A stretch of DNA of 64,000 bases from positions 58,575,444 to 58,639,443 of the forward strand of contig NC_081832.1 in the NCBI RefSeq assembly GCF_030867095.1. The letters run 5' to 3'. Each line of letters begins with the position of its first letter. Positions within the stretch are counted from its first letter, which is position 1. Made by a program: the position numbers and the translations under genes. Origin of the DNA: Alligator mississippiensis (taxonomy: Eukaryota; Chordata; Crocodylia; Alligatoridae). The notes beneath the pieces are model-generated. The model searched no databases. It worked only from the letters and a program-made list of their open reading frames with translations, and was not told the DNA's origin. This document shows positions 22,764 through 49,835 of this stretch, in pieces.

Positions 22764-24111
22764 AGAGAGCTTGGGGCTCCCTGTTACTTAGGGAAAGAAA
22801 CTTAGCTGATAGAGCCCAGGCAACTGAACTCAGGCCAGTTACCCAAGGACAGGCAACAAAGAAACATGGCTGCCTAGGCAGGTAACTCCCTGTTAGAGAA
22901 AAAGGACACACCTGCAGACAGTCATGAGAACTATGCCTAGGGCAAGTTGGCTGCAGGGGAACAGGCAGCTTGGCAAAAGAGGCTGTGACTGCCTATTGCA
23001 GAACTAGCTGCCGGGTAATAGGGCAGAGATGAGTTTGGGTAGCAAAGGGCTACCAGAGCAACAGTCATAAGCTTCCATGATAACCAGCCTTAAGGCCCTA
23101 ATGAGGAATTCCTGCAGGACTGGAGCACCACCTGACCAGAAGGGGTAGGGCTTAAGTGGCCTGTAAATCTAGTGCCTGAGTCAGGGCAGGCAATCTGTCC
23201 AGAAACCTGCAGAGAGAAAAGCTCCTGATCTGGAAGGCTACAGAAGGATGCTTGGCTCACTTCCGAGATGCCCTTGGGACTATGAGTAAGATACTGAGGC
23301 CTTACAAAGCAATACAGCCATAGGTAAGAGGAAGCCTTGCTGCAAAGCAGTGAACTACTGTTGACTAGAATGGGTTAAGTTTATGTTATAGCCAATGCGC
23401 TTGTTCCTTTTTTGCAGTTTACACGGGTGGACCCAGTTTGGGACTGTAGGGGAGCTTTGGAGGTCCCAAGGTGTCAGGGAACACAAAGCTTAAGCCTACC
23501 TGGGCAGGGTGCAATCTGCTTTAGCCCAAGGAGGGCAAGAACCAGGGACAGGGATCCACAGCCCAAGGAGGGCAAGAACCAGGCCCAGGCAGCCCATAGC
23601 CCAAGGAGGGAGAGAACCAGGGCCCAAGAAGGATAAGTCGAGGGCTGGAACCCAGAAGCCAGGTCATGCACAGTTGACTTAAGCTAAGGGAACCAGCAAG
23701 AGTAAAGGGATGGTGTAGGGGCCTGTGGTGGCCTGCTATCTGACTGGGGGCCAAGTGCCTACCAAAGACATTAATTGTAACACCTCCAAGGCATGGACGT
23801 GGCTGTAATGGAGGTTGGAGGCCATGAATAGGCCCTAAAGCTAAAAGTACCCTGAGGGGCATGGGGGAGCCAAGAGGGCCCTCCGAGCATGAAGTAGGTG
23901 GAAAGCAGCAGGGTCTGGGTGGGACCTGCTGGCTGTCAGAAGAACTGAAGGCATGCTCTAGGACCCTTACACAGCTTCCCTTTCTAGCATTCAATAGTTA
24001 CATCAAGGTGTGGCAGGAAAAAAGTGGAGGTTACCCAGGAGCCAGAGCAGAGCAAGGGTTGCATGGCCACTAGGGGGCATCACAGCTGCCCCTGGAGCAC
24101 AACTTGCCACA
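22764..24111 (+). mobile_element. LTR-like insertion in CR1 (relative of 31234-32218)
   Basis: This block sits between two CR1 segments with gtaac (22399-22403) before it and gttaac (24114-24119) after it, a likely decayed target duplication. It ends cttgccaca. Shared landmarks with the solo LTR at 31234-32218 are 'gaccagaaggggtagggctt', 'ttatgttatagcc' and an internal minisatellite. No TG start is visible, and the MITE at 22407-22763 sits at its left edge. No coding content. Probably a decayed solo LTR. Confidence 0.5.
23520..23630 (+). repeat. Minisatellite, about 3 units
   Basis: 'gcccaaggagggcaagaacc' recurs near 23524, 23561 and 23599 in slightly different forms. The opposite-strand frame at 23521-23994 (157 codons) arises from this repeat and is not a gene. 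Confidence 0.7.
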
Positions 24112-24113
24112 AA

Positions 24114-24235
24114 GTTAACTAGAGAAGTTGCAGAATCTTCTTCCTTCTAAGTTTTCAAAAGAGGTTGGATAGACCTTTGGCTGGAGTTGCTTTGTCAGGG
24201 ATGATCGTGCCTTGGGCAGGCGGTTTGGATTAGAT
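24114..24235 (+). mobile_element. CR1 LINE, second segment of the split copy
   Basis: Continues the CR1 from 22403: gagaagttgcagaatcttct, 'ttcaaaagaggttggataga' and 'ggatgatcgtgccttgggc', the last coding and 3' untranslated part. It stops at gattagat, which is the left target duplication of the hAT. Confidence 0.85.
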
Positions 24236-24434
24236 TAGCATTTCTCAACCCATAGGTCATGACCCAAAAGTGGGTCACAAAAAGATTTTATGGGAAACAC
24301 TGCAAGGCTGCATGGAACCAGCACATGGTGGCGGGGGGTATGGTGAGCACATAGGAGGACAACATAAAGCAGCAGAGGGGAGGGGGGCTGGATGCAGCAG
24401 CTGAAGGGGAAATGGGGGAGAAAGAGATACTCTG

Positions 24435-25320
24435 TGTGCCCGCCTCTGCTCCAGAAGGTGCTCTCGGGCAGCTCTTGCGTGGGTGGCGAACCGGGCCTGC
24501 CCTGCTCTCGCTGGGGAATCCCCGGAACTCGCTGACCGCGGTCACGGCTGGGCCCGCAGCAGGGGGGTCCCCCTCACTGCGGCCTCCAGCGCTGAAGCGC
24601 CCCTGGGCGGGCTCACACGGGGCTCCGACCTCCCCTACACCCCGGCCAACGCCACCTTTGGTCGTGGACATTCGGTTCCTTGTCCCCGAACAAGGACTGG
24701 GCGTCAAGGGGCCTCCCTGCCCCTTGCGGCCCTATTCCCCGACGCCCCGCCGGCGTCTCTGCCTGGTCTTCCCTGGTTCCCTCACCAGGATGCCCACCGG
24801 CTCCAGTTTGGTTCCCTCACAGGAGTTCCCGCCGGCTCCCGCTCCGGGCTCCTCCCCGAAGCCTCTGCCCGCTCGTCCCTGGTTACCTCACCGGTGGTTC
24901 CAGCTGGCCCTCTCTCTGGGCTCCTCCTCGGAGCTTCTGCCGGCCCCCTCGTCAATTTCGCCACTCTTCCACGGTGGCGCGGCTCTCCCAGCCTCCGTCG
25001 CTCCCGGCACGGCTGCAGCCTGTTCGGCCCATGGCAAAGGCCCCTTGCAGGGGCCTGGTTCCACTCCCGGGCTTCCTCCCGGGTTCCACGTCCTCCCACC
25101 GCGCGCTCCCTCTGTCTTCGGGGCCGCGTTTTATTTCCCCTGAGTGGCACCTCTCTCTGACGTTGCTCCGCCCCAGCCGTATGAAAGCACGGCTAACGAG
25201 CCGCGCGGGCGGTTCCCCAGCCTGCATGCCGCTGCTGCTCCCCCCTCCTGTGGGGCATAAGTGAGTGTTTCCCCTGGCCCTGGGCCGGGGGCTCCCTCTA
25301 GTCCCGTTGTCCCTGGGACA
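24435..25320 (-). repeat. LTR (3' LTR of the Gmr1-like element)
   Basis: 886 bp. On the plus strand it starts tgtgcccgcctctgctcc and ends gttgtccctgggaca. It matches 29529-30449 throughout. GC-rich, so it produces long open frames on the plus strand that are not genes. Confidence 0.9.
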
Positions 25321-25334
25321 TAACCCCCCCTTAA
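25321..25334 (-). other. Polypurine tract
   Basis: On the minus strand 'aaggggggggtta'-like purine run (plus: taacccccccttaa) directly precedes the 3' LTR, where plus-strand DNA synthesis is primed in this family. Confidence 0.75.
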
Positions 25335-25399
25335 GATGCCTTGGGGCGCTGCTTTGTTTCCCCTGTGTGTCGTACCTGTAGGGTCGGTCCACCCTTTCC

Positions 25400-25961
25400 C
25401 CGGGTCCTTTTGGTCCCCGGCCTGGTCTTCATTTCCACACCTAGACAAGAAGTCCGCCACGGTGTTGGTTTTCCCAGGTCGGTATGTGACGCAGAACTTA
25501 TATGGTTGGAGCGCTAATGCCCACCGGGTGATCCGAACATTATCGGACTTGGCCATACTTAGAAACTTCAGTGGGGCGTGGTCCATCACTAGTGTAAATT
25601 CTCTGCCTATCAGGTAGTACCTGAAGTAATCCACCGCCCACCAAATTGCCAGGCATTCACGCTCAATAGTGGCGTACCTTTTTTCTGCCGGTAGTAGCTT
25701 GCGGCTCGCATATGCCACAGGTCTTTTGCCCCCCCCCCCTTCTTCTTGGGTGAGGACTGCACCCACCACCATCTCCGAGGCGTCTGTCTGCAAGATAAAG
25801 GGTTTTTGGAAGTCAGGGGTATGAATTATGACGTCTTTGCATAATGCCCTCTTCAACTTTTCAAAACTTTGTATCATCTCCTCCGACCACCTGACTACTC
25901 CCGTTTTCCGCCCTTTGAGATCCCCTGACAGGGGTGCTGCTAATTCTGTGAAATGGGGCAC
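25400..25961 (-). pseudogene. RNase H region of the Gmr1-like pol
   Basis: Shows the typical gypsy RNase H start 'KPFILQTDASEMVVGAVL', then 'YATIERECLAIWWAVDYFR' and 'REFTLVMDHAPLKFLSM', and the closing 'PGKTNTVADFLSR'. In life it removes the RNA strand after copying. It follows the RT directly and ends close to the 3' LTR, so it is the last pol domain. Fossil. Confidence 0.85.
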
Positions 25962-25968
25962 AAATCGT

Positions 25969-26721
25969 CTATAATAGTTGGTTAGTCCCAGGAAGGACCG
26001 TAACTGGCGACAATCTTGCGGGGCCGTAAAGTATCAGATAATTTCTACTTTGTCGGCCAAAGGTTAAATTGTGCCCCTGCCAACCAAGAATCCCAAATAT
26101 TTTTTCTTTCTGCGCAAAAGCGCAATTTCGAGGATTTGCGGTTAGGCCGACGCGTCTCAACTCTGCGAGGACGGCCCAAAGGGCTCCCAGGTGTTGTTCC
26201 CAAGTCCGGGTGTATATGATGATGTCATCTATATACGCGGCTGCATATTCGGTGTGGGGCGCCAGGATCTGATCCATCAAACGTTGGAATGTTGCGGCGG
26301 CGCCGTGCAATCCAAAAGGCATCCTAACAAATTCGTACAGCCCCCATGGGGTGCCGAATGCCGTCTTCTGCCAGTCTCTCTTGGGTACCGGAATCTGCCA
26401 ATATCCCTTGGCCATGTCAAGGTTCGATATATACCGCGCATCTCCTATCCTTTCTACCAGCTCTGCCACGTGGGGCATGGGGAACGCATCAAAGACTGCC
26501 ATGGCATTCAAGCGCCGGTAGTCCACGCACAGTCTTAATGATCCGTCCGGCTTACGCACAGGTACCAATGGGCTTCTCCAGGGACTTCTGGAAGGCCGGA
26601 TAACTCCTAGTTGCAACATGGACTCAACTTCTTTGCGGACCGTTTCCCGGAGATGGTGGGGAATGGGCCGCCATCTCTCCCTCACTATTGCCCCAGGGGG
26701 TGTTTTGATGGTGTGGCACAT
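25969..26721 (-). pseudogene. Reverse transcriptase of the Gmr1-like pol
   Basis: Carries the gypsy RT landmarks in order: 'GVIRPSRSPWRSPLVPVRK', 'DGSLRLCVDYRRLNA', 'FPMPHVAELVERIGDARY', 'SNLDMAKGYWQIP', 'KTAFGTPWGLYEFVRMPFGL' and the active site 'YIDDIIIYT'. It lies downstream of the integrase in the reading direction, the unusual order discussed under findings. Confidence 0.9.
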
Positions 26722-26949
26722 ATTCCGAACTCAGCCGGGCTCTTCACGAAAGACCCCTCTGAATTCATCTATCAGGGTTCGGGCCTCTCGCTGTTGTGCC
26801 AGAGTTAGTTCCTCCCCCAGCCTGACTGGGGTATTTTCTGAAGAGGGCTCCATCCCTCTCTCTGGCCCTTGGGGTCCTAGTTCTTCATCCTCAGCCTCGG
26901 AAAAGGCTGCCCATCCCTCGGGATCCCGCCATTCCCGCAAGAGGTTCAC

Positions 26950-28110
26950 GTGATAAATCTGCTTCTCCTGGAGGTGCCTGGGTCTGTGAACCTCATAATC
27001 TACGGGCCCCACCCGGCGGAGGATCTCAAATGGCCCTTGCCACTGCGTTAGGAGCTTACTGGTGGACGTGGGGAGCAATACCAGGACCCTCTGCCCCGGT
27101 TTGAATTCTCGCTCCTTGGCCCGGCGATCGTACTGGCCTTTTTGGCGGGCTTGGGCTTCCCTGAGGTTCTCGTGGGCTAGATCTCAGGCCAATCTGATAC
27201 TCTGTTGGAACGTCTGCTGATATGTCTTCGCCTCCTGGAAGCGTCCTTCTCCTCGCTCCCATTCTTCTCTTAGGACCTGTAATAGGCTCCGCGGGTGATG
27301 CCTCAATACCAGCTCGAATGGTGAGAACTTTGTGGATTCTTGGGGGGTGTCCCTGAGAGTGAATAGTATTAGGGGGAGGAGGAGGTTCCATTTTCGGGGA
27401 TCCCCCTGTATGCACCGGCGCAATGCCCGTTTTATGGTTCTGTTAAGGCGTTCTACCAGCCCGTTGGTCTGGGGATGGTAGTCCAAGGTGCGGAGCTGCT
27501 TTATCTGAAGGGTCCAGCATACCGATCTTAAAACCCCAGACATGAAATTTTTCCCTTGGTCTGTCAAGATTTCTTGTGGGATCCCCACTCGGGCTATCCA
27601 ATTTATTAGTTCCTCCGTGATACGCGATGCCGTTACCGTTCGCAGGGGGGTTGCCTCCGGGTATCAAATGGCATAGTCCACGATAACTAGAATATATCGG
27701 TGACCCGAGTTACTGCAGGGCACAGGGCCTACGACGTCTAATGCAATCCTCGCGAACGGGGTGGTAATGACAGGCATGGATTGGAGGGGGGCCCGAGGAG
27801 GGCGTTCGGTTCTCGTCTTTTGACAAATGGGGCAGGCCGCACACTGGCGGGCTACTTCCTCCCTCATCCTGGGCCAAAAAAACCATCTGTTCACCTTCAC
27901 GAGGGTTTTGTCTCGGCCCAGATGCCCCCCTGCAGGGCTCGCTTGCGCCAACTGCCAAATAGCCTGGCGGAATTGGGCGGGCACCACTAGCTGCGGGCCC
28001 TCGATCTCCTCCCTCTGTCCCCCTGTAGGCGGTACAGGAGTCGATCCCTTACCTCAAAGTGGGCTCGTCCTTCCGGTGTCGATGTAGAGGCCCTCTGGGT
28101 ACCTTGGGCC
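26950..28110 (-). pseudogene. Integrase of the Gmr1-like pol
   Basis: In minus-strand order: an HHCC zinc part with 'GGHLGRDKTLVKV' and 'CAACPICQ', the core starting 'IALDVVGPVP', later 'EILTDQGKNF' and 'YHPQTNGLVERLNRTIK' with the catalytic acids, and a C-terminal 'WQGPFEILRRVGPVDYEV' and 'KQIYHVNLLREW' tail like the GPY/F module. It inserts the DNA copy into the genome. Its place between protease and RT is the diagnostic trait. Fossil. Confidence 0.85.
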
Positions 28111-28397
28111 TGTTCTCGAAGCGTCCCAATCTCCGGATCCTTCTCCTGGGCGTCACGGAACAGGAGACTACTCGTGAGGTTGTCGAGGTCCAACATATTC
28201 GCCTCATTGGTTGGCCCCTCGCCTTCTTCCAGCTCGCCCAACCAGCCTTCTCGGCTCTGGATCCTTTTTTGGGCCCCTTCTGCGTCCCTTACCCTGTCTA
28301 GGACGTCGTATATCGGTGCCCAGTCACGGTCCAGGAGCATTTCACAGGCTAACCGGGGCACCGCGCCCACCAGGCGTTCTCCTTGATGCTCCATTAC

Positions 28398-28640
28398 CTA
28401 TAGGCGGACCCATTGGTGCTCAGTCCGCTTCACATCCCCATGGAGGCTGGAAATTCTCACGGGGGAAGCTGCCCCCCGACCGTACGGTGGTATCAAATCT
28501 TCCCTGACGAGGGATTGAGCACATCCCGAATCCAAAATAGCTTGCACAGGGCGGCCTTCCACCCACGCTGTGACAACCGGGCGCTTCCACGCCACATTCC
28601 CTCCGCCAACCGCATAACTGCAGTCCATAGGCTCGCCGAA
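28398..28640 (-). pseudogene. Aspartic protease of the Gmr1-like element
   Basis: Contains 'VEGRPVQAILDSGCAQSLV', with the D-S-G active-site triad of retroviral-type aspartic proteases. Located between the CCHC knuckle of gag and the integrase. Fossil. Confidence 0.75.
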
Positions 28641-28649
28641 GCCTTGACC

Positions 28650-29520
28650 TCACCACCGCTCCACTGGGGCCTTTGTTCGGTTGTCCAGGGCCCACCGTTC
28701 CATGGCCTGCCGCGGGCATTCTCTGGAAAAATGGCCCTTCTGCCCGCACCGGAAACATACTGTATCCCTGGGAGTCCCTCGGTTGGGCAGACGCCTGCGC
28801 TCCGGTTCTCGTGAGGCTGCCACCGAGGGCCCCTGGCTCCTTCTCTCCCTAGGGTAGTACACCTCTGAGGCAGAGAAAGCTTCGGCCAACCTCAGAGCTT
28901 CCTCACTATTCTGTGGGGTATGCTGCCGGACCCATCATTGCGTCCGCTCCTCTAAGTCGTTCTAGAACTGCTCCAGGATGATCTGGTCGGCTAGTGCCTC
29001 TCGGTCATGCCCCGCTGGGCTCACCCACTTATCCAGCAAGTCGCGCAACTGTTGTAACAACACTCCCGGCTGTCTTATCTCGTGGCCCTTCTTAGCTCGG
29101 AATCGGCGCCGGTAGTGCTCGGGGTTGATCTCTAAACGATATAAGATGGCTTCCTTTACGGACTTGTAGTCCAGGGCATCCTCCCTCGACAGGGCCTGGT
29201 ACGCGGCTTGGGCCTTGCCCACTACTAAGGCCCCACCTGGCTGGCCCAGTATCTCTTATCCAACCCCGCCACGAGGGCATGCCGTTCAAAGGCCTCAATA
29301 TACGCCTCCTGGTCATCCTCTTTAGTCATCTTAGGCATCTTAAAGGATGCCAGGCTGTGCTGGTGCCATTCTTGTTGCTGGTCCAACATCAGTTGCTGGG
29401 AGCCCAGAATCTGGGTCAGCAGTTGCAAGTTCTGCCCGATAATATCAACGGGGCCCATAGCCGGGGCCTGCACGTCGGCATAAGTCACCAGATCGGGGTT
29501 CTCCATGATCCCACCACTGC
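28650..29520 (-). pseudogene. Gag with SCAN-like segment and CCHC knuckle
   Basis: From the start: 'MENPDLVTYADVQ', a glutamine-rich helix 'MLDQQQEWHQHSLASFKMPK' and 'EAYIEAFERHAL'. Then comes a SCAN-like stretch 'LLQQLRDLLDKWVSP' ... 'ADQIILEQF', and near the end the zinc knuckle CFRCGQKGHFSRECP. The gag forms the particle that packages element RNA. The match to the L-x2-L-x2-W...LEQF pattern of SCAN domains fits the published idea that SCAN derives from gag of such gypsy elements. Fossil. Confidence 0.8.
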
Positions 29521-29525
29521 CACCA
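29508..29525 (-). other. Putative primer-binding site
   Basis: Three bases inside the 5' LTR the minus strand reads TGGTGGCAGTGGTGGGAT. It begins TGG as expected and agrees at about 12 of 16 positions with the complement of initiator tRNA-Met. The primer identity is an inference. Confidence 0.5.
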
Positions 29526-29528
29526 CGT

Positions 29529-30449
29529 TGTGCCCGCCTCTGCTCCAGAAGGTGCTCTCGGGCAGCTCTTGCGCAGGTGGCGAACCGGGCCTGCTCCGCT
29601 CTCTCTGGGGAATCCCTGGAACTCGCCGACCGCGGTCACGGCTGGGCCCGCAGCAGGGGGGTCCCCCTCACTGCGGCCTCCAGCATCGAAGCGCCCCTGG
29701 GCAGGCTCACACGGGGCTCTGGCCTCCCCTACACCCCGGCCAACGCCACCTTTGGTCGTGGACATTCGGTTCCTTGTCCCCGAACGAGGACTGGGCATCG
29801 AGAGGCCTCCCCGCCCCTTGCAGCGCTCTTCCCCGATGCCCCGCCAGCGTCTCTGCCTGGTCTTCCCTGGTTCCCTCACCGGGATTCCCACCGGCTCCAC
29901 TCCGGTTCCCTCACCAGAGTTCCCGCCGGCTCCAGTCCAGTTCCCTCACCAGAGTTCCCGCCGGCTCCCGCTCCGAGCTCCTCCCCGGAGCCTCTGCCCG
30001 CTTGTCCCCGGTTACCTCACCAGTGGTTCCAGCTGGCCCTCTCTCTGGGCTCCTCCTCAGAGCTTCTGCCGGCCCCCTCGTCAATTTCGCCGCTCTTCCA
30101 CGGCGGCGCGGCTCTCCCAGCCTCCGTCGCTCCCAGCGCGCCTGCAGCCTGTTCGGCCCACGGCAAAGGCCCCTTGCAGGGGCCTGGTTCCACTCCCGGG
30201 CTTCCTCCTGAGTTCCACGTCCTCCCGCCACGCGCTCCCTCTGTCTTTGGGGCCGCGTTTTATTTCCCCTGAGCGGCACCTCTCTCTGACATCACTCCGC
30301 CCCAGCTGTATGAAAGCGTGGCTAATGACCCGTGCGGGCGGTTCCCCGGCCTGCACGCCGCCGCTGCTCCCCCCTCCTGCGGGGCATAAGTGAGTGTTTC
30401 CCCTGGCCCTGGGCCAGGGGCTCCCTCTAGTCCCGTTGCCCCTGAGACA
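29529..30449 (-). repeat. LTR (5' LTR of the Gmr1-like element)
   Basis: 921 bp, starting tgtgcccgcctctgctcc and ending gttgcccctgagaca on the plus strand. It carries one more 35-bp unit ('gttccctcaccagagttccc') than the other LTR, at about 29900-29960, which accounts for the length difference. Confidence 0.9.
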
Positions 30450-30536
30450 CTGGTTTGGGGACTGGGAGGGTGTGGGTCATGGCAAGCTGATAGTTATACT
30501 AATGGGTCCTAGTGTGAAAAAGGTTGAGAACCACTG

Positions 30537-30600
30537 GACTAGGTGACCTTGTGAGGTCCCTTACAGACCTACTTCCCCGTGATCCTTATATTAAAATAAG
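30537..30600 (+). mobile_element. CR1 LINE, last segment of the split copy
   Basis: gactaggtgaccttgtgagg and 'tcccttacagacctacttc' give the CR1 3' end. This closes the split element and includes the right target duplication of the hAT. Confidence 0.8.
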
Positions 30601-31228
30601 AAGCCGGACTTTACATTTAAACTTTATCATTTTGGGTTGGTTTTCTTCCTGTAGTCTGCAAAGCAGAGCACTGCAGACTCCTAAAGGCTTGTTAAAAGTA
30701 CTCAGAGGAAACCTGTAAAATAGGGTGGTTAAATTTACCTGATGGTTTTTTTTAAGTACAGTAGGTCTGCCTGTAGGAGTTTTTTAAATTGGTATAAGAT
30801 ATGCAATGGTGGGACCTGAAGGCACAAGTTATACCAACTTAGGTTCTCTAAACTGAATTACTCTCCTCTAAATTCTGTCCTTTACCTTTTTCATCATTCA
30901 GACAGCAATGATAGCTCAGTATATTCACCTTTTCAAATTGTTTTATATCATTTCATTGGTCACAGCTTTAAAAAGAATACTGTAAAATAACCTTTAGGAA
31001 ATTCTTCAAGAACTAATGAAGATTTTCAGAAAAATGAGAAGATTTTTCATCCAAATCATCCATTCCCTTTTTCTTGTTTGTTAGCCACCTCCAGAGCTGG
31101 TCCAGATGTGTAAGTTTGAATAGGTAAGTGTTTTCTTCTTTAATAATTACTCATCACACATTTTTGAGACTTACCTAAATGCCCAGACATGCTAGCTTTA
31201 TGGGGCTAGAAGAAATGAAACAATGTAA
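30601..31228. other. Unique AT-rich DNA
   Basis: No gene or repeat recognised. Just before the solo LTR lies its target gctac (31229-31233). Confidence 0.5.
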
Positions 31229-31233
31229 GCTAC

Positions 31234-32218
31234 TGTCGCAGGGCACTAGGGTGTCCTGCTCCTTTTAAGGGCTGGAACTGCTAGGGAGAGAGCTCTAGCA
31301 GTCAGTTGGGAGCCCCAGCTGCTGGTTACCAGGGCAGCCAGAATGAGTTAGTTGGCCCACACCTGCTAGTGGTCAGCTGACCAGAAGGGGCAGGGCCTGG
31401 CTCATATATAAACCCCCAGGGCTGAGGCCAGGAAGGCAGTTCCCTGCTAGCAGCCAGAGGGGAAGGAACCTCCAGGGCTCAGTGCCCTGTAATGCTGCAA
31501 CTGCCTGGTATGCTGCACCTAGGGCTAAGGGGGCTCCATGAGCTCCACAGGTACCTTTGCCTATTAGACACTTAGTACAAGGGATGAAATCTGATCCTTT
31601 TAAAGGGTCAGAGCACACCCTGACCTTTTGTATTATGTTATAGCCCAGGGGCTTGTGTTTTGTTTGCTGTTGTATAAGACTGGTGGTTTGTGTGAAGCTA
31701 TTTGGGGAAGGAGGAGGCCTCACTGGGGGCCCACTCCAGCGTGGGGACCCCGGCACCAGTGAGGGCACAGCATTTGGGGCTGTGGAGAGCCCAGGTGCCA
31801 GTGGGGGCATGGAGACAAGGGCTGTGGAGAGCCCAGGTGCCAGTGGGGGCATGGAGACAAGGGCTGTGGAGAGCCTAGAGAGGACAAGGGGGCCAATTCA
31901 TACCAAGGCCCAGACTGAACAATGTCAATGCCATCTGCAAGGCTTGGGGTGTGGTAAAGGAGCGGTTGGAGCCATACATATAGCCCATAAGGCTGGGGTG
32001 TCCTGTGACATCTATTTTGAAATGGGACCCACAAGGGGTCCGGGAACCTATGGGGTTCAGAGAGCCCATCAAACCATGTCCAAGAGGGCAGCCTCCCTAT
32101 ACTATAAATCCATCAAGACATGGCGGGCAAGAACTGAGGGTGTGCAGTGGGCCAAACTGGCATGGTTGAGGGGCCTTAGGGGTAATGCAGCCATCCTTAG
32201 GGACCCTGTCCCGTGACA
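31234..32218 (+). mobile_element. Solo LTR with perfect 5-bp target duplication
   Basis: Begins tgtcgcagggcactag and ends ggaccctgtcccgtgaca, TG...CA, with gctac repeated exactly outside both ends (31229-31233, 32219-32223). A TATA box atatataa lies at 31405-31412. A 41-bp unit 'ggagagcccaggtgccagtg...' is present twice at about 31783-31865, and a partial third follows. The plus-strand 187-codon frame (31653-32216) comes from these repeats and has no protein-like features. A 5-bp duplication suits Ty3/gypsy. It is related in its ends to the LTR at 60046-60966. Confidence 0.8.
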
Positions 32219-35624: not shown

Positions 35625-36440
35625 TCAGTATGCTGTTAGCCTTCTTCACCAAAAGGGAGCACTGTTGGCTCACATTTAGCTTATTGTCCCATGAAAGCCC
35701 TAGGTCCTTTTCTGCAGAGCTGCTGCTTAGCCAGTCTGTCCCCAGCATGTACCAGTGCATGGGATTGTTCCATCCTAACTGCAGGATTTTGCACTTCTCC
35801 TTGTTGAACCTCATGAGATTTTTGTTTTAGTCCAATCCTCCAATTTGTCTAGGTCTCTCTGAATCCTAGCCCTACCCTCCGGAGTATCTACTATTCCCCC
35901 CCAGCTTGGTGTCATCTGCAGACTTGCTGAGGATGTACTTCATCCCATCTTCCAGGTCATTGATGAAGATGTTGAACAAAACCAGCCCCAGGACCAACCC
36001 TTGGGGCACTTCACTTGATATCGGCTGCCAACTAGACATCAAGCCATTGATTACTACCCTTTGAGCCTGATGATCCAGCCTATTTTCTATCCACCTTACA
36101 GTCCATTTATCCAACTCATATTTTCTTAGCTTGCTTACAAGAATGTTGTGGGAGACTGTATCAAAAGGCTTGTTAAAGTCAAGGTATATCATGTCAACTC
36201 TTCTCCCTGCATCCACAGAGCCAGTCATCTCATCATAGAAGGCAATCAGGTTGACCAAGCATGACTTGCCTTTGTTGAATCTATGCTGACTGTTCCTAAT
36301 CTCCAAGTGCTTAAAAATATCTTCCTTGAGAACCTGCTCCATGATTTTTCTAGAGACTGAGGTGAGCCTAAATGGTCTGTAGTTCCCTGAATTGTGCTCT
36401 TTCCTTTTCTTAAAGATGGATACTATACTTGCCCTTTTCG
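35625..36440 (-). mobile_element. Older CR1 LINE, part 1 (split by the CR1 at 36445-41014)
   Basis: On the minus strand the CR1 RT is readable: '[20 protein letters not shown]', '[20 protein letters not shown]', '[20 protein letters not shown]', '[20 protein letters not shown]' and 'SADDTKLG' (the A-D-D active site), then 'MRFNKEKCKILQLGWNNP'. The 5' end breaks at 36440 in 'acttgcccttttc' and resumes at 41015, on the other side of the younger CR1. It has a few frame breaks and lacks its 3' end. Confidence 0.85.
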
Positions 36441-36442
36441 AA

Positions 36443-36466
36443 TTAGGGTTAGGGATAGGGTTAGGG
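36443..36466 (+). repeat. Short vertebrate telomere-type repeat (TTAGGG)n
   Basis: ttagggttagggatagggtt and aggg: four units, one imperfect, lying exactly at the 5' junction of the young CR1 and overlapping a possible target duplication aatt. Either the CR1 family starts this way, or telomere-like DNA was added at the junction. Confidence 0.85.
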
Positions 36467-36912
36467 TAACAGTAAATGCGCGCAGCTTAAAAGGGCCCGC
36501 CGACAGGGAGAAAGCCTGTTAGACATGGGAGCGGCAAGAGACGTGCGGGTGAAAGCCCACTGCGCCCCCGCTCCCCCGAAACCCCCCAGAGACCCTCCAG
36601 CAGCCGCGGAGACCCCAGCCGACCCCCAGCACAGCCGGAGGTAAGCAGGGCCCATGGAGAGAGGGGGCTAACCCTTTAGTGTGTGTGTGGGAGGAGGCGG
36701 CTGAGTGGAGCCGGGCCGGGTCAAGCCCCGCCCAGGCCCATACTTGGCCCAGCCACCCAGGGAGCCACACAAACAGGCGCGCTTCTCTGCCAGCACGTGA
36801 GTTAGTGCGGAGTTCGCGCGGGAGGGCACACGGGAGGGCCCGGGACCCTGCCTGCACACCCCCCAGGGTAGACAGTTCCAGCCGTAGCCAGCCTACCAGA
36901 GGCATGCCACGG

Positions 36913-38000
36913 ATGGGCATGCGCTGCACCCCTTGGGTCCCCTCGGGCTCCATGGCCCCCCCCCCAGCACCTCAGAGACTGCCACCCAGACGGAGCCCTT
37001 GGTTCCGGCCTCCACGCAGACGGAGCCCCTGGCTCTCGGCTGCGGGGGCTGCCTGTCCCTTTTCCAGGCTCTGGGGCCTGGGAGCATGGTGACCTCCCCT
37101 TGTGGGGTCTGCTCCCTTTTGGGGTCTCTGGTGCACCAGCTGGAGGAGCTCCAGGCCACAGTCCAGAGACTGCGTGCCATCAGGGACTGTGAGCAGGAGA
37201 TAGACTCCTACTGCCTGGCCCTTCTCCCCTGGGAGGTGGAGGGTAGACCACAGTCTCCCTCCAGGCCAAAGGAGGACTCCGGGACCTCCCGCTCTGTCCA
37301 GCCAGGGGCATGGACCACGGTGGTCAAGGGCCCTAAGGCCCATTGCACCAAGGCCCCTGCCCCACCAGAGCTGGCCAACAGGTATGCACCTCTTGCCGCT
37401 CCAGCAGAGCCTGCTGAGTTGCCGGCTCCCGCAAGCAACATGGGCCCATCTACACCTCCCGCCCCTGCTCTCCCCAAGACAAAACGTAAGGTGTTTGTTG
37501 TGGGAGACTCCATCCTGAGGGGGACAGAGGGGGCAATCTGCCGCCCCGACCCCTTAGCCCAGGAAGTCTGCTGCTTCCCGGGGGCCCGCATCCAGGACAT
37601 TGCGGAGAGGATCCCAGAGCTCCTCCAACCCACAGACCACTATCCCATGCTCCTAATTCATGTGGGCACCAATGACATGGCTCGGAGTGCTCCCAGCTGG
37701 GTCATGAGGCGCTACAGGGATTTGGGAGTGGGGCTAAAGGGTCTGGGGGCACAGGTGGTGTTCTTGTCGATCCTCCCAGTCTCAGGCTATGGGCCGAGGA
37801 GGGAGAGGAGGATCCACGTGGTCAACCAAAGACTGTGGCACTGGTGTCGTCGGGAAGGCTTTGGCTTTCATGACCACAGCCTGCTCTTTGGCAAGAGAGG
37901 CAGTGAGCTGCTGGGAAGAGATGGCCTCCACCTCTCTCCCCTAGGGAGGAGGCTCTTCTCAGCCAGACTGGCTGACCTGCTCCACCGGGCTTTAAACTAA
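36913..38000 (+). CDS. CR1 ORF1 protein with SGNH esterase domain
   Basis: The frame from 36933 to 38000 (355 codons) has no ATG at its start. An ATG at 36913 begins MGMRCTPWVPSGSMAPP in another phase, and a run of ten C (36956-36965) lies exactly where the two phases must join, so one base has probably been lost or gained there. Residues (from 36933): 'TATQTEPL' repeats about 17-34, Cys pairs CGGC and CGVC (36-60), a leucine-rich coiled coil 'LVHQLEELQATVQRLRAI' (66-84), a proline/alanine-rich linker, and the esterase with GDSI (190), GTND (about 244) and DGLH (about 330) motifs, i.e. Ser, Asn and Asp/His catalytic positions all kept. In CR1 elements ORF1 binds the RNA, and the role of the esterase is unsettled. 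Confidence 0.85.
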
Positions 38001-38140
38001 GCCTGCTGGGGGACGGAGGCACTACCGCCACTGCTGGCCCGCTGAGCAATCCTTGCAAAGCCAGCAGGTCAAGGCACTTAAGGGAGCCCACCCCTGCCCC
38101 AGCCCTTGTAAAATCTGTGGGCAAGGAAGGAGCCCCCTAG

Positions 38141-40914
38141 GGGGCACTTGCTTGCCTGTACACAAATGCCAGAAGCTTGGGGAATAAGCAGGAGGAGCTC
38201 ATCCTCCTGCTCAATGCAAATAATTATGATGTCATAGGGATAACGGAGACCTGGTGGGACTCCACCCATGACTGGACCATGGGTATAGATGGCTATACCC
38301 TGTACAGGAGGGATCGTGTAAAGAAAAGGGGCGGGGGTGTAGCTGTCTATGTTAAGGAAAGCTATGCATCCCTGCAAGCCGATATTGGCAACCAGGGTGG
38401 ATGGCTGGAGACCCTCTGGGTTAAAATCCGTGGGGAACACGGCACAGGGGACACAATGGTGGGAGTCTACTACAGACCTCCCACCCAAAGTCCTGAGCTT
38501 GACCAGGAGTTTGCCCGGGAACTGGCTGAGGCCGCATGCTCCAGGACTATGGTTGTCATGGGTGACTTCAATTACCCGGACATCTCGTGGGAGGATCGCT
38601 CAGCAAAATCTGAGCGGTCACAAAGCTTCCTCTCATGCGTGGATGACCTCTACCTGACTCAAGAAGTCTATGGGCCAATGAGAGGCAAAGTGCTGCTCGA
38701 CCTGGTACTGGCTACTGGGGATGACCTAGTCGGTGACCTAGTGATCGATGGGAAACTGGGTGACAGCGACCACGAGCTGATCACCTTCACCATCCGCCAA
38801 AAAGCTGGCAAGTCAGTCAGCAACACGCAAGTCCTTGACTTCAGGAAAGCCGACTTTGACAAGCTCAGGAGCTTGTCAGTGAGGCCCTAAGGGACCATGA
38901 TGACGGGGAGAGGGGAGATCAAGAAGAGTGGTTGCTCCTCAAGGGAGCGATCCTCAAAGCACAAACTAAGTCTATTCCATCTTGGAGGAAAGGCAGCAAG
39001 AGGGCACAGCAACCCCCCTGGCTCTCCAGGGACCTAGCAGACCTCCTGAGGCTAAAAAGAAAGGCCTACAAAGGATGGAGGATGGGAGTCACCTCCAAGG
39101 AGGATTATTCTGCACTGGTCCGGTCCTGTAGGGAGCAGATCAGGAAAGCCAAGGCTGCAACTGAACTCCAACTAGCTTTGAGCATCAAGGACAATAAAAA
39201 GTCCTTTTTCAGATATGTGGGGAGCTGGAGGAAAAGCAGGGGCAATGTTGGACCCCTGCTGAACCAGATGGGGCTACTGACAACTGACACCCAGGAAAAA
39301 GCCAACCTATTAAATAGGTACTTTGCGTCAGTCTTTCATCAGTCCCATGGGACGCCCATGCCTGCTACAGGACAGGGAAGTCCGGGTGAGGGTGATCCCC
39401 TGCCCTCCATTAATGCTGACTTCGTGAAGGAACATCTTGAGAAGCTGGATACCTTCAAGTCAGCCGGCCCTGACAATCTTCACCCCAGGGTACTCAAGGA
39501 GCTGGCAAGTATCATAGCCCAGCCTCTAGCACGGATCTTTGAAAACTCTTGGCGCTCTGGTGTAGAGCCCGAAGACTGGAAGAAGGCCAATGTGGTGCCT
39601 ATCTTCAAGAAAGGGAGGAAAGTGGATCCGGCTAACTATAGGCCCATCAGCCTGACTTCTATCCTGGGGAAGATCTTAGAAAAGTTTATTAAAGAGGCCA
39701 TCCTTAATGGACTGGCCGACGCCAACATCTTAAGGGATAGCCAGCACGGGTTTGTTGCGGGTAGGTCTTGCTTGACCAATCTCATTTCCTTCTAATACCA
39801 GGTGACCTATCACCTGGACAAGGGAGATGAGATTGATGTCATATATCTTGACTTCAAAAAAGCCTTCGATCTGGTTTCCCATGATCACCTCTTGGAGAAA
39901 CTGGCCAATTGTCGCCTTGGGTCCTCCACAATCCACTGGCTGGAAAATTGGCTCCGGGGTCGGACCCAGAGGGTAGTAATTGATGGAAGTCACTCATCGT
40001 GGTGTCCTGTGACCAGTGGGGTCCCCCAAGGCTCTGTCCTTGGACCCATACTGTTCAACATCTTCATTAATGATGTGGACACTGGAGTCAGAAGCGGACT
40101 GGCCAAGTTCGCAGATGACACCAAACTTTGGGGCAAAGCATCCACACCAGAAGACAGGCGGATGATCCAGGCTGACCTGGACAGGTTCAGCAAGTGGGCG
40201 GACGAGAATCTGATGGTGTTCAACGCCGATAAATGCAAGGTTCTCCACCTTGGGAAGAAAAACCCACAGCATCCTTATAGGCTCGGCGGTGCTATGTTGG
40301 CTAGCACTATGGAAGAAAGAGACTTGGGGGTCATCATTGACCACAAGATGAACATGAGCCTGCAATGCGATGCTGCAGCTAGTAAAGCGACCAAAACGCT
40401 GGCTTGCATCCATAGATGCTTCTCAAGCAAATCCCGGGACGTCATTCTCCCCCTGTATTCGGCCTTAGTGAGGCCGCAGCTGGAGTACTGCGTCCAGTTT
40501 TGGGCTCCACAATTCAAAAAGGATGTGGAGAAGCTTGAGAGAGTCCAGAGAAGAGCCACGCGCATGATCAGAGGTCAGGGAAGCAGATGCTACGATGACA
40601 GGCTGAGAGCCCTGGGGCTCTTTAGCCTGGAAAAGTGCAGGCTCAGGGGTGATCTGATGGCCACCTATAAGTTTATCAGGGGTGACCACCAGTATCTGGG
40701 GGAACGTTTGTTCACCAGAGCGCCCCAAGGGATGACGACTAGGTCGAATGGTCATAAACTATTACAAGACCATTTCAGGCTGGACATAAGGAAGAATTTC
40801 TTTACTGTCCGAGCCCCCAAGGTCTGGAACAGCCTGCCACCGGAGGTGGTTCAAGCGCCTACATTGAACACCTTCAAGAGCAAACTGGATACTTATCTTG
40901 CTGGGATCCTATGA
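38141..40914 (+). pseudogene. CR1 ORF2: endonuclease and reverse transcriptase, two breaks
   Basis: Open from 38141 ('ALACLYTNARSLGNKQEEL') without an obvious ATG. The APE-type endonuclease spans to about 38860: 'VIGITETWWDSTHDW' (catalytic E), 'GGVAVYVKE', 'VVMGDFNYPDISW' and 'LGDSDHELITF' (D/H pair). A frame change near 38875 leads into 'EALRDHDDG' in the next phase. The RT follows: 'FKSAGPDNLHPRVLKELA', 'NVVPIFKKGRKVDPANYRPI', a stop at 39793-39795 in 'LISF*YQV', then 'IDVIYLDFKKAFDLVSHDHL', '[20 protein letters not shown]' and 'KFADDTKLW' at 40105-40131 (active site), and a C-terminal 'LEYCVQFWAPQFKKDVEKLE'. Without these two changes the protein would be of normal length. It nicks target DNA and copies the element's RNA in place. 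Confidence 0.9.
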
Positions 40915-47609: not shown

Positions 47610-49835
47610 GCTCCCCCATAGATTCATAGATGTTAGGGTCGGAAGGGACCTCAATAGATCATCAAGTCCGACCCCCTGCATAAGCAGGAAAGAGTGCTGG
47701 GTCTAGATGACCCCAGCTAGATACTCATCTAACCTCCTCTTGAAGACCCCCAGGGTAGGGGAGAGCACCACCTCCCTTGGGAGCCAGTTCCAGACCTTGG
47801 CCACTCGAACTGTGAAGAAGTTCTTCCTTATGTCCAGTCTAAATCTGCTCTCTACTAGCTTGTGGCCATTGTTTCTTGTAATCCCCGGGGGCGCCTTGGT
47901 GAATAAATCCTCACCAATTCCCTTCTGTGCCCCCGTGATGAACTTATAGGCAGCCACAAGGTCGCCTCTCAACCTTCTCTTGCGGAGGCTGAAAAGGTCC
48001 AGTTTCTCTAGTCTTTCCTCGTAGGGCTTGGTCTGCAGGCCCTTGACCATACGAGTTGCCCTTCTCTGTACCCTCTCCAGGTTATCCGCATCCTTCTTGA
48101 AGTGTGGCGCCCAGAATTGCACGCAGTACTCCAACTGCGGTCTGACCAACGCCCTATAGAGGGGAAGTATCACCTCCCTGGACCTATTCGTCATGCATCT
48201 GCTGATGCACGATAAAGTGCCATTGGCTTTTCTGATGGCTTCGTCACACTGCCAGCTCATGTTCATCTTGGAGTCCACTAGGACTCCAAGATCCCTTTCC
48301 ACCTCTGTGCCACCCAGCAGGTCATTCCCTAGGCTGTAGGTGTGCTGGACATTTTTCCTCCCTAGGTGCAGCACTTTGCATTTCTCCTTGTTGAACTGCA
48401 TCCTGTTGTTTTCTGCCCACTTGTCCAGCCTATCCAGGTCTGCCTGCAGCTGTTCCCTGCCCTCCGGCGTGTCCACTTCTCCCCATAGCTTTGTGTCATC
48501 TGCAAACTTGGACAGAGTACATTTGACTCCCTCGTCCAAGTCGCTGATGAAGACATTAAAGAGTATCGGTCCAAGGACCGAGCCCTGCGGGACCCCACTG
48601 CCCACACCCTTCCAGGTTGAGACCGACCCATCCAACACGACTCTTTGGGTGTGACCCTCTAGCCAACTTGCCACCCACCGGACTGTGTAGTCATCCACAT
48701 CACAGCCTCTTAACTTGTTCACCAGTATGGGGTGGGATACCGTATTGAAGACCTTCCTGAAGTCTAAGTATATGACATCCACCCCTCCTCCTGTGTCCAG
48801 GCGTTTCGTAACCTGGTCATAGAAAGAGACTAGATTGGTCAGGCACGATCTGCCCGCCACAAACCCATGCTGGTTTCCCCTCAGCATAATCTGCCCTGCC
48901 GGGCTCTCACAAATGTGAGCCTTGATAATTTTTTCAAAGACTTTACCAAGGATGGAGGTGAGACTGACTGGCCTATAGTTGCCTGGGTCCTCCTTCCTCC
49001 CCTTTTTGAAAATGGGGACCACGTTAGCCGTTTTCCAGTCCTCCGGGACTTGGCCCGTGCACCACGAGCGTTCGAATATTCCTGCCAGTGGCTCTGCAAT
49101 GATGTCGGCCAGTGCCTTCAGCACCCTCGGATGGAGCCCGTCCGGGCCTGCCGACTTAAATGCATCCAGTTCTTCCAAGTGACTCTGCACCACCTCAGGA
49201 TCTACGTATGGAAGTCTGGCGCCTTGCTGCTGCCTCTCTACAACCCCAGTGAGAGACTTGTCGTGCCCCTCACTTAGGAACACTGAGGCAAAGAACTCGT
49301 TGAGGAGTTCAGCCTTGTCCCCCCTGTCTGCCACCAATTGTTTCTGCCCATTTAGCAGCGGTCCTATTCGTCCCTGGGCCTTCCTTTTACTCCCAATATA
49401 TCTAAAAAACAATTTCTTGTTGTCCTTTACTTGGGTTGCCATCCTCAGCTCCATGGTAGCTTTGGCCCGCCTAACTGCCTCCCTACAAGCACGAGCAGAG
49501 GAGGTATATTCATCTTTAGTGATCTCACCCTGTTTCCACTTTTTATGTGCTCCCCTTTTGGCCCTTAGGCTGCCCTGGATTTCTCTGGTCAGCCATGGAA
49601 GCCTCCTGGCCCCTTTCCCTCTTTTGCTTCGCTCGGGGATCGTCTTGATTTGTGCCTGAAGGATCGTTTCCTTTAGGCACAGCCACTTGGGCACCCATCC
49701 CATCAAAACTCCTACTCTGCAGTGCTTCCTTGACTAATCGCCTGAGTGCATTGAGATCAGCTTTCCTAAAGTCTAGCACTTTCACCCTACTAGTTACCTT
49801 ACCCACTCGCCGTCTTATGTTGAAGACATCTTACA
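47610..49835 (-). mobile_element. CR1 LINE, 5'-truncated, with open RT frame
   Basis: The 3' end on the plus strand starts tagattcatagatgttagg, then 'gtcggaagggacctcaatag' and 'atcatcaagtccgaccccct', a typical CR1 end of reptiles. It runs back to the linker between endonuclease and RT ('GKVTSRVKVLDFRKADLNAL', 49806 downward), where it is cut off. The endonuclease and ORF1 are missing, as usual for LINE copies whose synthesis stopped early. Low decay suggests youth. I found no clear target duplication. Confidence 0.9.
47703..49706 (-). CDS. CR1 ORF2 reverse transcriptase, uninterrupted 667-codon frame
   Basis: A continuous frame from a TTG at 49706 (next codon ATG, 49703-49701) to the stop at 47703. 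Landmarks: 'GARRLPWLTREIQGSLRAKR' (about 30-50), 'FKSAGPDGLHPRVLKALADI', 'NVVPIFKKGRKEDPGNYRPV', 'HGFVAGRSCLTNLVSFYDQV', 'GVDVIYLDFRKVFNTVSHPI', 'GVPQGSVLGPILFNVFISDL', the active site 'SKFADDTKLW', 'RMQFNKEKCKVLHLGRKN', and the C-terminal 'LEYCVQFWAPHFKKDADNLE' to 'FKRRLDEYLAGVI'. Just upstream the reading continues in another phase ('EALQSRSFDGMGAQVAV'), so there is one frame change near 49690. In the intact protein this RT copies RNA primed by the nicked target. Without the endonuclease this copy cannot act alone. Confidence 0.85.
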   Translation of the reverse strand: MMGWVPKWLCLKETILQAQIKTIPERSKRGKGARRLPWLTREIQGSLRAKRGAHKKWKQGEITKDEYTSSARACREAVRRAKATMELRMATQVKDNKKLFFRYIGSKRKAQGRIGPLLNGQKQLVADRGDKAELLNEFFASVFLSEGHDKSLTGVVERQQQGARLPYVDPEVVQSHLEELDAFKSAGPDGLHPRVLKALADIIAEPLAGIFERSWCTGQVPEDWKTANVVPIFKKGRKEDPGNYRPVSLTSILGKVFEKIIKAHICESPAGQIMLRGNQHGFVAGRSCLTNLVSFYDQVTKRLDTGGGVDVIYLDFRKVFNTVSHPILVNKLRGCDVDDYTVRWVASWLEGHTQRVVLDGSVSTWKGVGSGVPQGSVLGPILFNVFISDLDEGVKCTLSKFADDTKLWGEVDTPEGREQLQADLDRLDKWAENNRMQFNKEKCKVLHLGRKNVQHTYSLGNDLLGGTEVERDLGVLVDSKMNMSWQCDEAIRKANGTLSCISRCMTNRSREVILPLYRALVRPQLEYCVQFWAPHFKKDADNLERVQRRATRMVKGLQTKPYEERLEKLDLFSLRKRRLRGDLVAAYKFITGAQKGIGEDLFTKAPPGITRNNGHKLVESRFRLDIRKNFFTVRVAKVWNWLPREVVLSPTLGVFKRRLDEYLAGVI

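Follow-up and report, generated by a model that had tools for sequence, protein, structure and literature searches.

Introduction

The Gmr1 clade of Ty3/gypsy long terminal repeat (LTR) retrotransposons was reportedly set out by Goodwin and Poulter in 2002, and Emerson and Thomas reportedly traced, in 2011, the SCAN domain of vertebrates, now a part of host gene regulators, back to Gmr1-like elements. Here we describe a minus-strand LTR retrotransposon at 24435-30449 of a 64,000-nucleotide (nt) window of the Alligator mississippiensis genome (NC_081832.1, positions 58,575,444 to 58,639,443), which is very probably a decayed member of an abundant Ty3/gypsy family of Gmr1 type. According to the portions of the sources available to us, an integrase encoded upstream of the reverse transcriptase (RT) defines Gmr1-like elements (PMC3587641, PMC2774666, PMC8220671). 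In the same partial texts, integrase-first gypsy elements are reported from fish (PMC11117352), frogs (PMC4131045), a tunicate, crustaceans and an annelid, those of crustaceans (PMC3587641) and the annelid (PMC8220671) being Gmr1-like. SCAN is described there as a homologue or a descendant of the capsid found in Gmr1-like gypsy elements (PMC4592553, PMC3424704), and the accessible part of a frog survey places it in more than 50% of Gmr elements and in none of the other element types (PMC4131045). Our literature search found no paper on Gmr1 retrotransposons in turtles, a weak negative since most subscription literature lay outside the search; for SCAN, zinc fingers and retrotransposons in turtles it returned nothing beyond a paper on DUF3669, with subscription literature again mostly outside.

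Results

Pfam searches, run on the separate open pieces of the window copy, showed that the two LTRs enclose, read along the minus strand, a SCAN-type capsid, a CCHC knuckle, protease, integrase, RT and finally ribonuclease H (RNase H). An initial annotation, made from the letters of the sequence, had read the order gag, protease, integrase, RT, RNase H here, and its domain coordinates lay close to the Pfam pieces; the SCAN-type gag core, which it did not report, is an addition. The features are as follows, siblings being the related genomic copies described below.

29529..30449, minus strand: 5' LTR, 921 nt, from the pair alignment; starts with TGT and terminates in CA, with the same termini in siblings
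29508..29525, minus strand: primer binding site, 17 of 18 positions matching the tRNA-Leu 3' end
29225..29506, minus strand: N-terminal part of gag, 88-96% identical in siblings (partial in 5)
28650..29255, minus strand: gag capsid region with SCAN-type domain and CCHC zinc knuckle (Pfam), crossed by in-frame stops
28398..28649, minus strand: aspartic protease (Pfam RVP 24.1 bits, cut-off 20.7; DSG by eye)
27664..28053, minus strand: integrase HHCC domain and start of the catalytic core (Pfam Integrase_H2C2 58.5 bits)
27184..27663, minus strand: integrase catalytic core (Pfam rve; 35 residues from the second Asp to Glu, by eye)
26900..27183, minus strand: integrase C-terminal GPY/F-type module (Pfam on piece 26731-27183; GPF by eye)
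25969..26730, minus strand: RT (Pfam RVT_1 95.1 bits; YIDD by eye)
25437..26033, minus strand: RNase H and connecting region, to the extent alignable with Ty3 (match at 2.1e-28)
25321..25332, minus strand: polypurine-type tract AAGGGGGGGTTA, adjoining the 3' LTR, with a similar tract in 11 LTR-delimited siblings
24435..25320, minus strand: 3' LTR, 886 nt, from the pair alignment

The capsid piece 28962-29255 scored 40.8 bits for SCAN despite a stop that cuts it, and the piece 28650-28934 gave 31.9 bits for zf-CCHC. Among structures in the PDB, the HHCC piece matched the integrases of prototype foamy virus (1.4e-13) and Ty3 (4.9e-10); the HHCC domain annotated near 27900 was thus recovered, although one of its four expected zinc ligands is non-canonical by eye. 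The GPY/F-like tail annotated after the core was detected as Integrase_p58_C (38.0 bits) and SH3_Tf2-1 (36.6 bits). RT lies in the same frame as this tail with one intervening stop, and RT_RNaseH scored 134.7 bits on piece 25131-26033. The domain search of the interval that had been proposed as a check therefore found every expected domain, the integrase core below its curated cut-off. A second integrase downstream of RNase H was excluded because the approximately 115 nt between the last Ty3-aligned RNase H residue (25437) and the 3' LTR (25320) are too short to hold one.

The best PDB match of the RT was Ty3 (2.6e-42, 148.4 bits), followed by chain 8r0s (97.5 bits) and then by retroviral chains, and Ty3 was also the best match of the RNase H. 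Pfam and PDB matches thus agree with the Ty3/gypsy affinity claimed for both domains. Integrase before RT is the normal arrangement in Ty1/copia elements, and a copia identity would explain the pol order, the single observation that speaks for it. The RT, however, matched RVT_1 and Ty3, the GPY/F-type module is present, and RVT_2, which we take to be the copia-type RT model, was not among the Pfam matches (a copia RT was not directly compared). We rejected Ty1/copia identity on RT type and regard it as exceedingly improbable. Chromovirus features were likewise not found, the order being reversed and no chromodomain appearing among the Pfam matches of the window pieces.

The two LTRs, both of which had been annotated, were 89% identical over 921 aligned positions in the BLAST pair alignment. 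Across 886 ungapped positions we counted 64 differences, 57 transitions among them, and obtained a Kimura two-parameter (K2P) distance of 0.077. Imperfect repeats of about 35 nt occur within both (29856-30031 and 24762-24902). The primer site starts 3 nt past the 5' LTR and spans 18 nt with one mismatch, and the gag ATG (29506) stands 1 nt beyond it. We take the sequence used for naming this site to be the tRNA-Leu 3' end. That 3' end has 65 exact copies in the genome, every one on contig 4 at 95.545-95.954 Mb and mostly spaced by about 4.6-4.7 kb; they probably form a large tandem array of tRNA genes. The LTR pair with TG and CA ends, the primer site, the purine tract and the 5-bp duplications of siblings are hallmarks of an LTR retrotransposon.

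At least three frame changes and at least seven in-frame stops affect gag, protease, integrase and the region leading into RT, which agrees with the annotated picture of a recognisable, broken copy. The window copy is old, degenerate from gag to RT and dead; it cannot work. With an assumed rate of 1.0-2.2e-9 substitutions per site per year, the K2P distance puts its age at roughly 18-39 million years. No further copy turned up in the window, either among BLAST matches touching 23000-31500 or by tblastn at E up to 0.01, where the pieces of RT, RNase H and integrase matched only themselves.

A 701-nt RT query returned 648 genome candidates, 40 of which were scored and, with the window locus included, were 92-100% identical. 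The family is abundant in the alligator genome. As siblings we took the 20 copies ranking next behind that of the window (94-97% identity across the query), leaving out matches shorter than 80 nt or on the strand opposite to RT when the order was read. In all 20, gag, SCAN region, CCHC, protease, HHCC, core, GPY/F piece, RT and RNase H followed one another in this order. Integrase tail and RT shared one open frame in 14 of them, the exceptions being L014, L017, L018, L024, L026 and L028, and gag and pol share one frame, interrupted by stops, in L022 and L023. Long LTR matches flanked the body on both sides in 16 siblings, and a primer site with at most two mismatches was present in 15 (absent in L013 and L020-L023). 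The bodies of L020-L023, two on small contigs and two on contig 11, are closely similar to one another; these copies, in which a mere 83 nt of the window LTR was matched and on one side only, represent either duplicated segments or a subfamily of their own.

A script placed the boundaries of both LTRs in 11 siblings; the other nine, where it did not find both LTR ends, were left unmeasured. LTR lengths in the 11 ranged from 875 to 1117 nt and K2P distances from 0.048 to 0.093. Exact 5-bp target duplications bound seven of them (L009, L011, L014, L016, L024, L025 and L027). In L012 the shared stretch is 4 bp long, in L010 and L018 four of five positions agree, and L015, whose 3' end is of unusual form, has no duplication.

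The order extends well beyond these copies. An RNase H Pfam model gave 5769 genome candidates, of which 150 were scored and the 30 best-scoring were fetched with 1.5-kb flanks; this sample covers the top of the score range, with other gypsy clades of the genome outside it. The integrase tail stood upstream of RT in 30/30, with RT proteins 60-90% identical to that of the window. We also matched coordinates of the 150 scored of 5769 RNase H candidates to those of the best 150 of 5273 HHCC candidates. The matches listed contained 50 pairs, in 49 of which HHCC lay upstream by 2.1-2.5 kb; in the remaining pair it lay downstream, two neighbouring tandem copies having been joined; the 101 RNase H matches without an upstream HHCC partner among the 150 listed are uninformative. 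The check for integrase upstream of RT that the initial annotation had asked of siblings therefore came out positive in the 20 siblings and in the 30 RNase H loci.

These results bear on whether an ordinary gypsy element was scrambled after insertion, be it through a rearrangement, a nested insertion or an error of assembly. The many breaks of the window copy and its lack of a clear target duplication would suit such an event, but the same order stands at the 20 sibling sites elsewhere in the genome and at the 30 RNase H loci, and the frame from integrase tail to RT is open in most siblings and in the deep relative L059. Post-insertion rearrangement is refuted by this inherited order, and we give scrambling of any kind next to no probability.

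Deeper relatives were represented by L059 and L060, whose RTs were 44 and 43% identical to that of the window. In L059, HHCC, rve, RVT_1 and RNase H all scored above cut-off within one open piece of 887 residues (aa), with integrase-tail matches below it. Integrase-first order is thus common to relatives with RTs about 90, 75, 60 and 44% identical to the window RT. A 1567-aa open frame lies at the L059 locus and frames of similar length were listed at other places; the lineage may therefore have been active more recently.

In the PDB, the window capsid piece matched SCAN domains, including those of human ZNF24 (7.8e-5) and ZNF174. SCAN scored 61.7-77.6 bits in all six sibling gag pieces tested, and a gag piece from the L059 locus (L063) scored 49.8 bits over positions 1-89 of 90. 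Against the human ZNF24 SCAN, the score was 53.6 bits for sibling L020 and 31.5 for the deep lineage. A SCAN-type Gag is thus found in the window family and in the deep lineage. Among genome SCAN matches, the best 150 of 2002 candidates scored 100.7-136.1 bits and many were clustered, on contigs 1 (449-486 Mb), 5 (220 Mb), 2 (2.0-2.3 Mb), 7 (0.5-2.3 Mb), 15 and 16. The clustered strong matches are probably expanded host SCAN genes.

A tree was built from 52 distinct RT and RNase H rows (55 minus 3 duplicates) over 397 columns, with Ty3 and the control L062 included. The window copy fell among its siblings, with L041/L051 branching off just outside the large family. At L062, degraded, stop-bearing remnants of RT and RNase H (C10:29110860-29111762) are followed, farther downstream on that strand, by an SH3-type integrase-tail match at C10:29108991. 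We read it as RT-first, and the approach therefore distinguishes both orders. L061, the other candidate RT-first control, gave no match, and the viral contigs scanned held no confirmed relative.

Other retroelements occupy the window. LINE (long interspersed nuclear element) pieces at 36888-40914 on the plus strand carry in turn a GDSL esterase-like frame, an endonuclease and an RT; we take the element to be probably of CR1 type. A 676-aa open frame at 47703-49733 on the minus strand holds an RT domain (109.6 bits) and is probably another LINE. An RT fragment (63.5 bits) lies at 35872-36486 on the minus strand.

Discussion

We assign the window element to the Gmr1 type on its inherited domain order and on its SCAN-type Gag, which independently points to Gmr1-like elements. 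Beside the order itself, this Gag is the strongest reason for filing it there. The Gmr1-type reading put forward by the initial annotation is accordingly supported by inherited order and Gag together, whereas its description of a rare group known from deuterostomes holds only in part: the type is right, the group is also reported, in the accessible text, from crustaceans (PMC3587641) and an annelid (PMC8220671), and the window family is not rare in the alligator genome. The reversed pol order is confirmed from raw sequence in a large family that otherwise shows nothing out of the ordinary for its known group.

In working members of the family, transcription would begin from the LTR, and tRNA-Leu would prime at the site following the 5' LTR. 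Translation would yield one Gag-Pol chain of SCAN-type capsid, zinc knuckle, protease, integrase, RT and RNase H. The protease would cleave this chain, and integrase could therefore be functional despite being encoded ahead of RT. RT and RNase H would copy the RNA, and insertion of the product by integrase would duplicate 5 bp of the target.

Several observations weigh against a Gmr1 assignment. The window copy has no clean target-site duplication at its flanks, its integrase core reached 23.2 bits for rve against a curated cut-off of 32.6, and L020-L023 are without the window-type LTR and primer site. Membership rests on architecture and SCAN, as no named Gmr1 sequence was compared. At the base of the tree, L059/L060 lay beside Ty3 at 61.7/32 and the deep branches with L062 were not separated; because the support joining L059/L060 to Ty3 is weak, a single origin of integrase-first order is not established. 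A gypsy lineage that acquired this order independently of Gmr1 would be compatible with a tree that does not separate the integrase-first lineages of this genome relative to Ty3. Against such convergence, the deep lineage shares with the window family a SCAN-type Gag, a trait reported for tetrapod Gmr1-like elements though not for every one, and we consider independent acquisition very unlikely. Membership in the Gmr1 type thus remains by far the favoured reading.

The SCAN-type Gag is a more useful point than the reversed order. Because its capsid outscores that of the deep lineage on SCAN (61.7-77.6 versus 49.8 bits), the window family could tentatively be the Gmr1 sublineage nearest to the vertebrate SCAN donor, persisting as repeats beside large clusters of probable host SCAN genes. 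The score difference is suggestive only, and we think this reading possible though rather doubtful. If true, a donor-like element and descendant host SCAN genes could be compared in one animal. Two SCAN-positive integrase-first lineages and at least 150 strong SCAN matches offer material to root and date the host capture of SCAN.

With the Gmr1-like SCAN source reportedly proposed by Emerson and Thomas, the window family shares a SCAN-family capsid region in Gag, and it sits in a host genome with many strong SCAN matches. Yeast Ty3 is the best PDB match for the window RT and RNase H and also has an HHCC integrase. Unlike in the window element, the Ty3 integrase follows RT: in chain 7q5b, RT was matched at 586-792 and integrase at 1088-1195. 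The Gmr1 clade shares with the window family both the gypsy-type RT and RNase H and the integrase upstream of RT. Frog Gmr elements carry SCAN in over half of cases in the available text (PMC4131045), and a SCAN-type domain is also present in the Gag of the window family. The LTRs of fish Gmr1-4, as given in the accessible part of their description, are 337-518 bp (PMC11117352), whereas those of the window family are about 0.88-1.1 kb. The fused Gag-Pol of these fish elements, 1506-1634 aa in the same source (PMC11117352), is comparable to the 1567-aa frame at the L059 locus.

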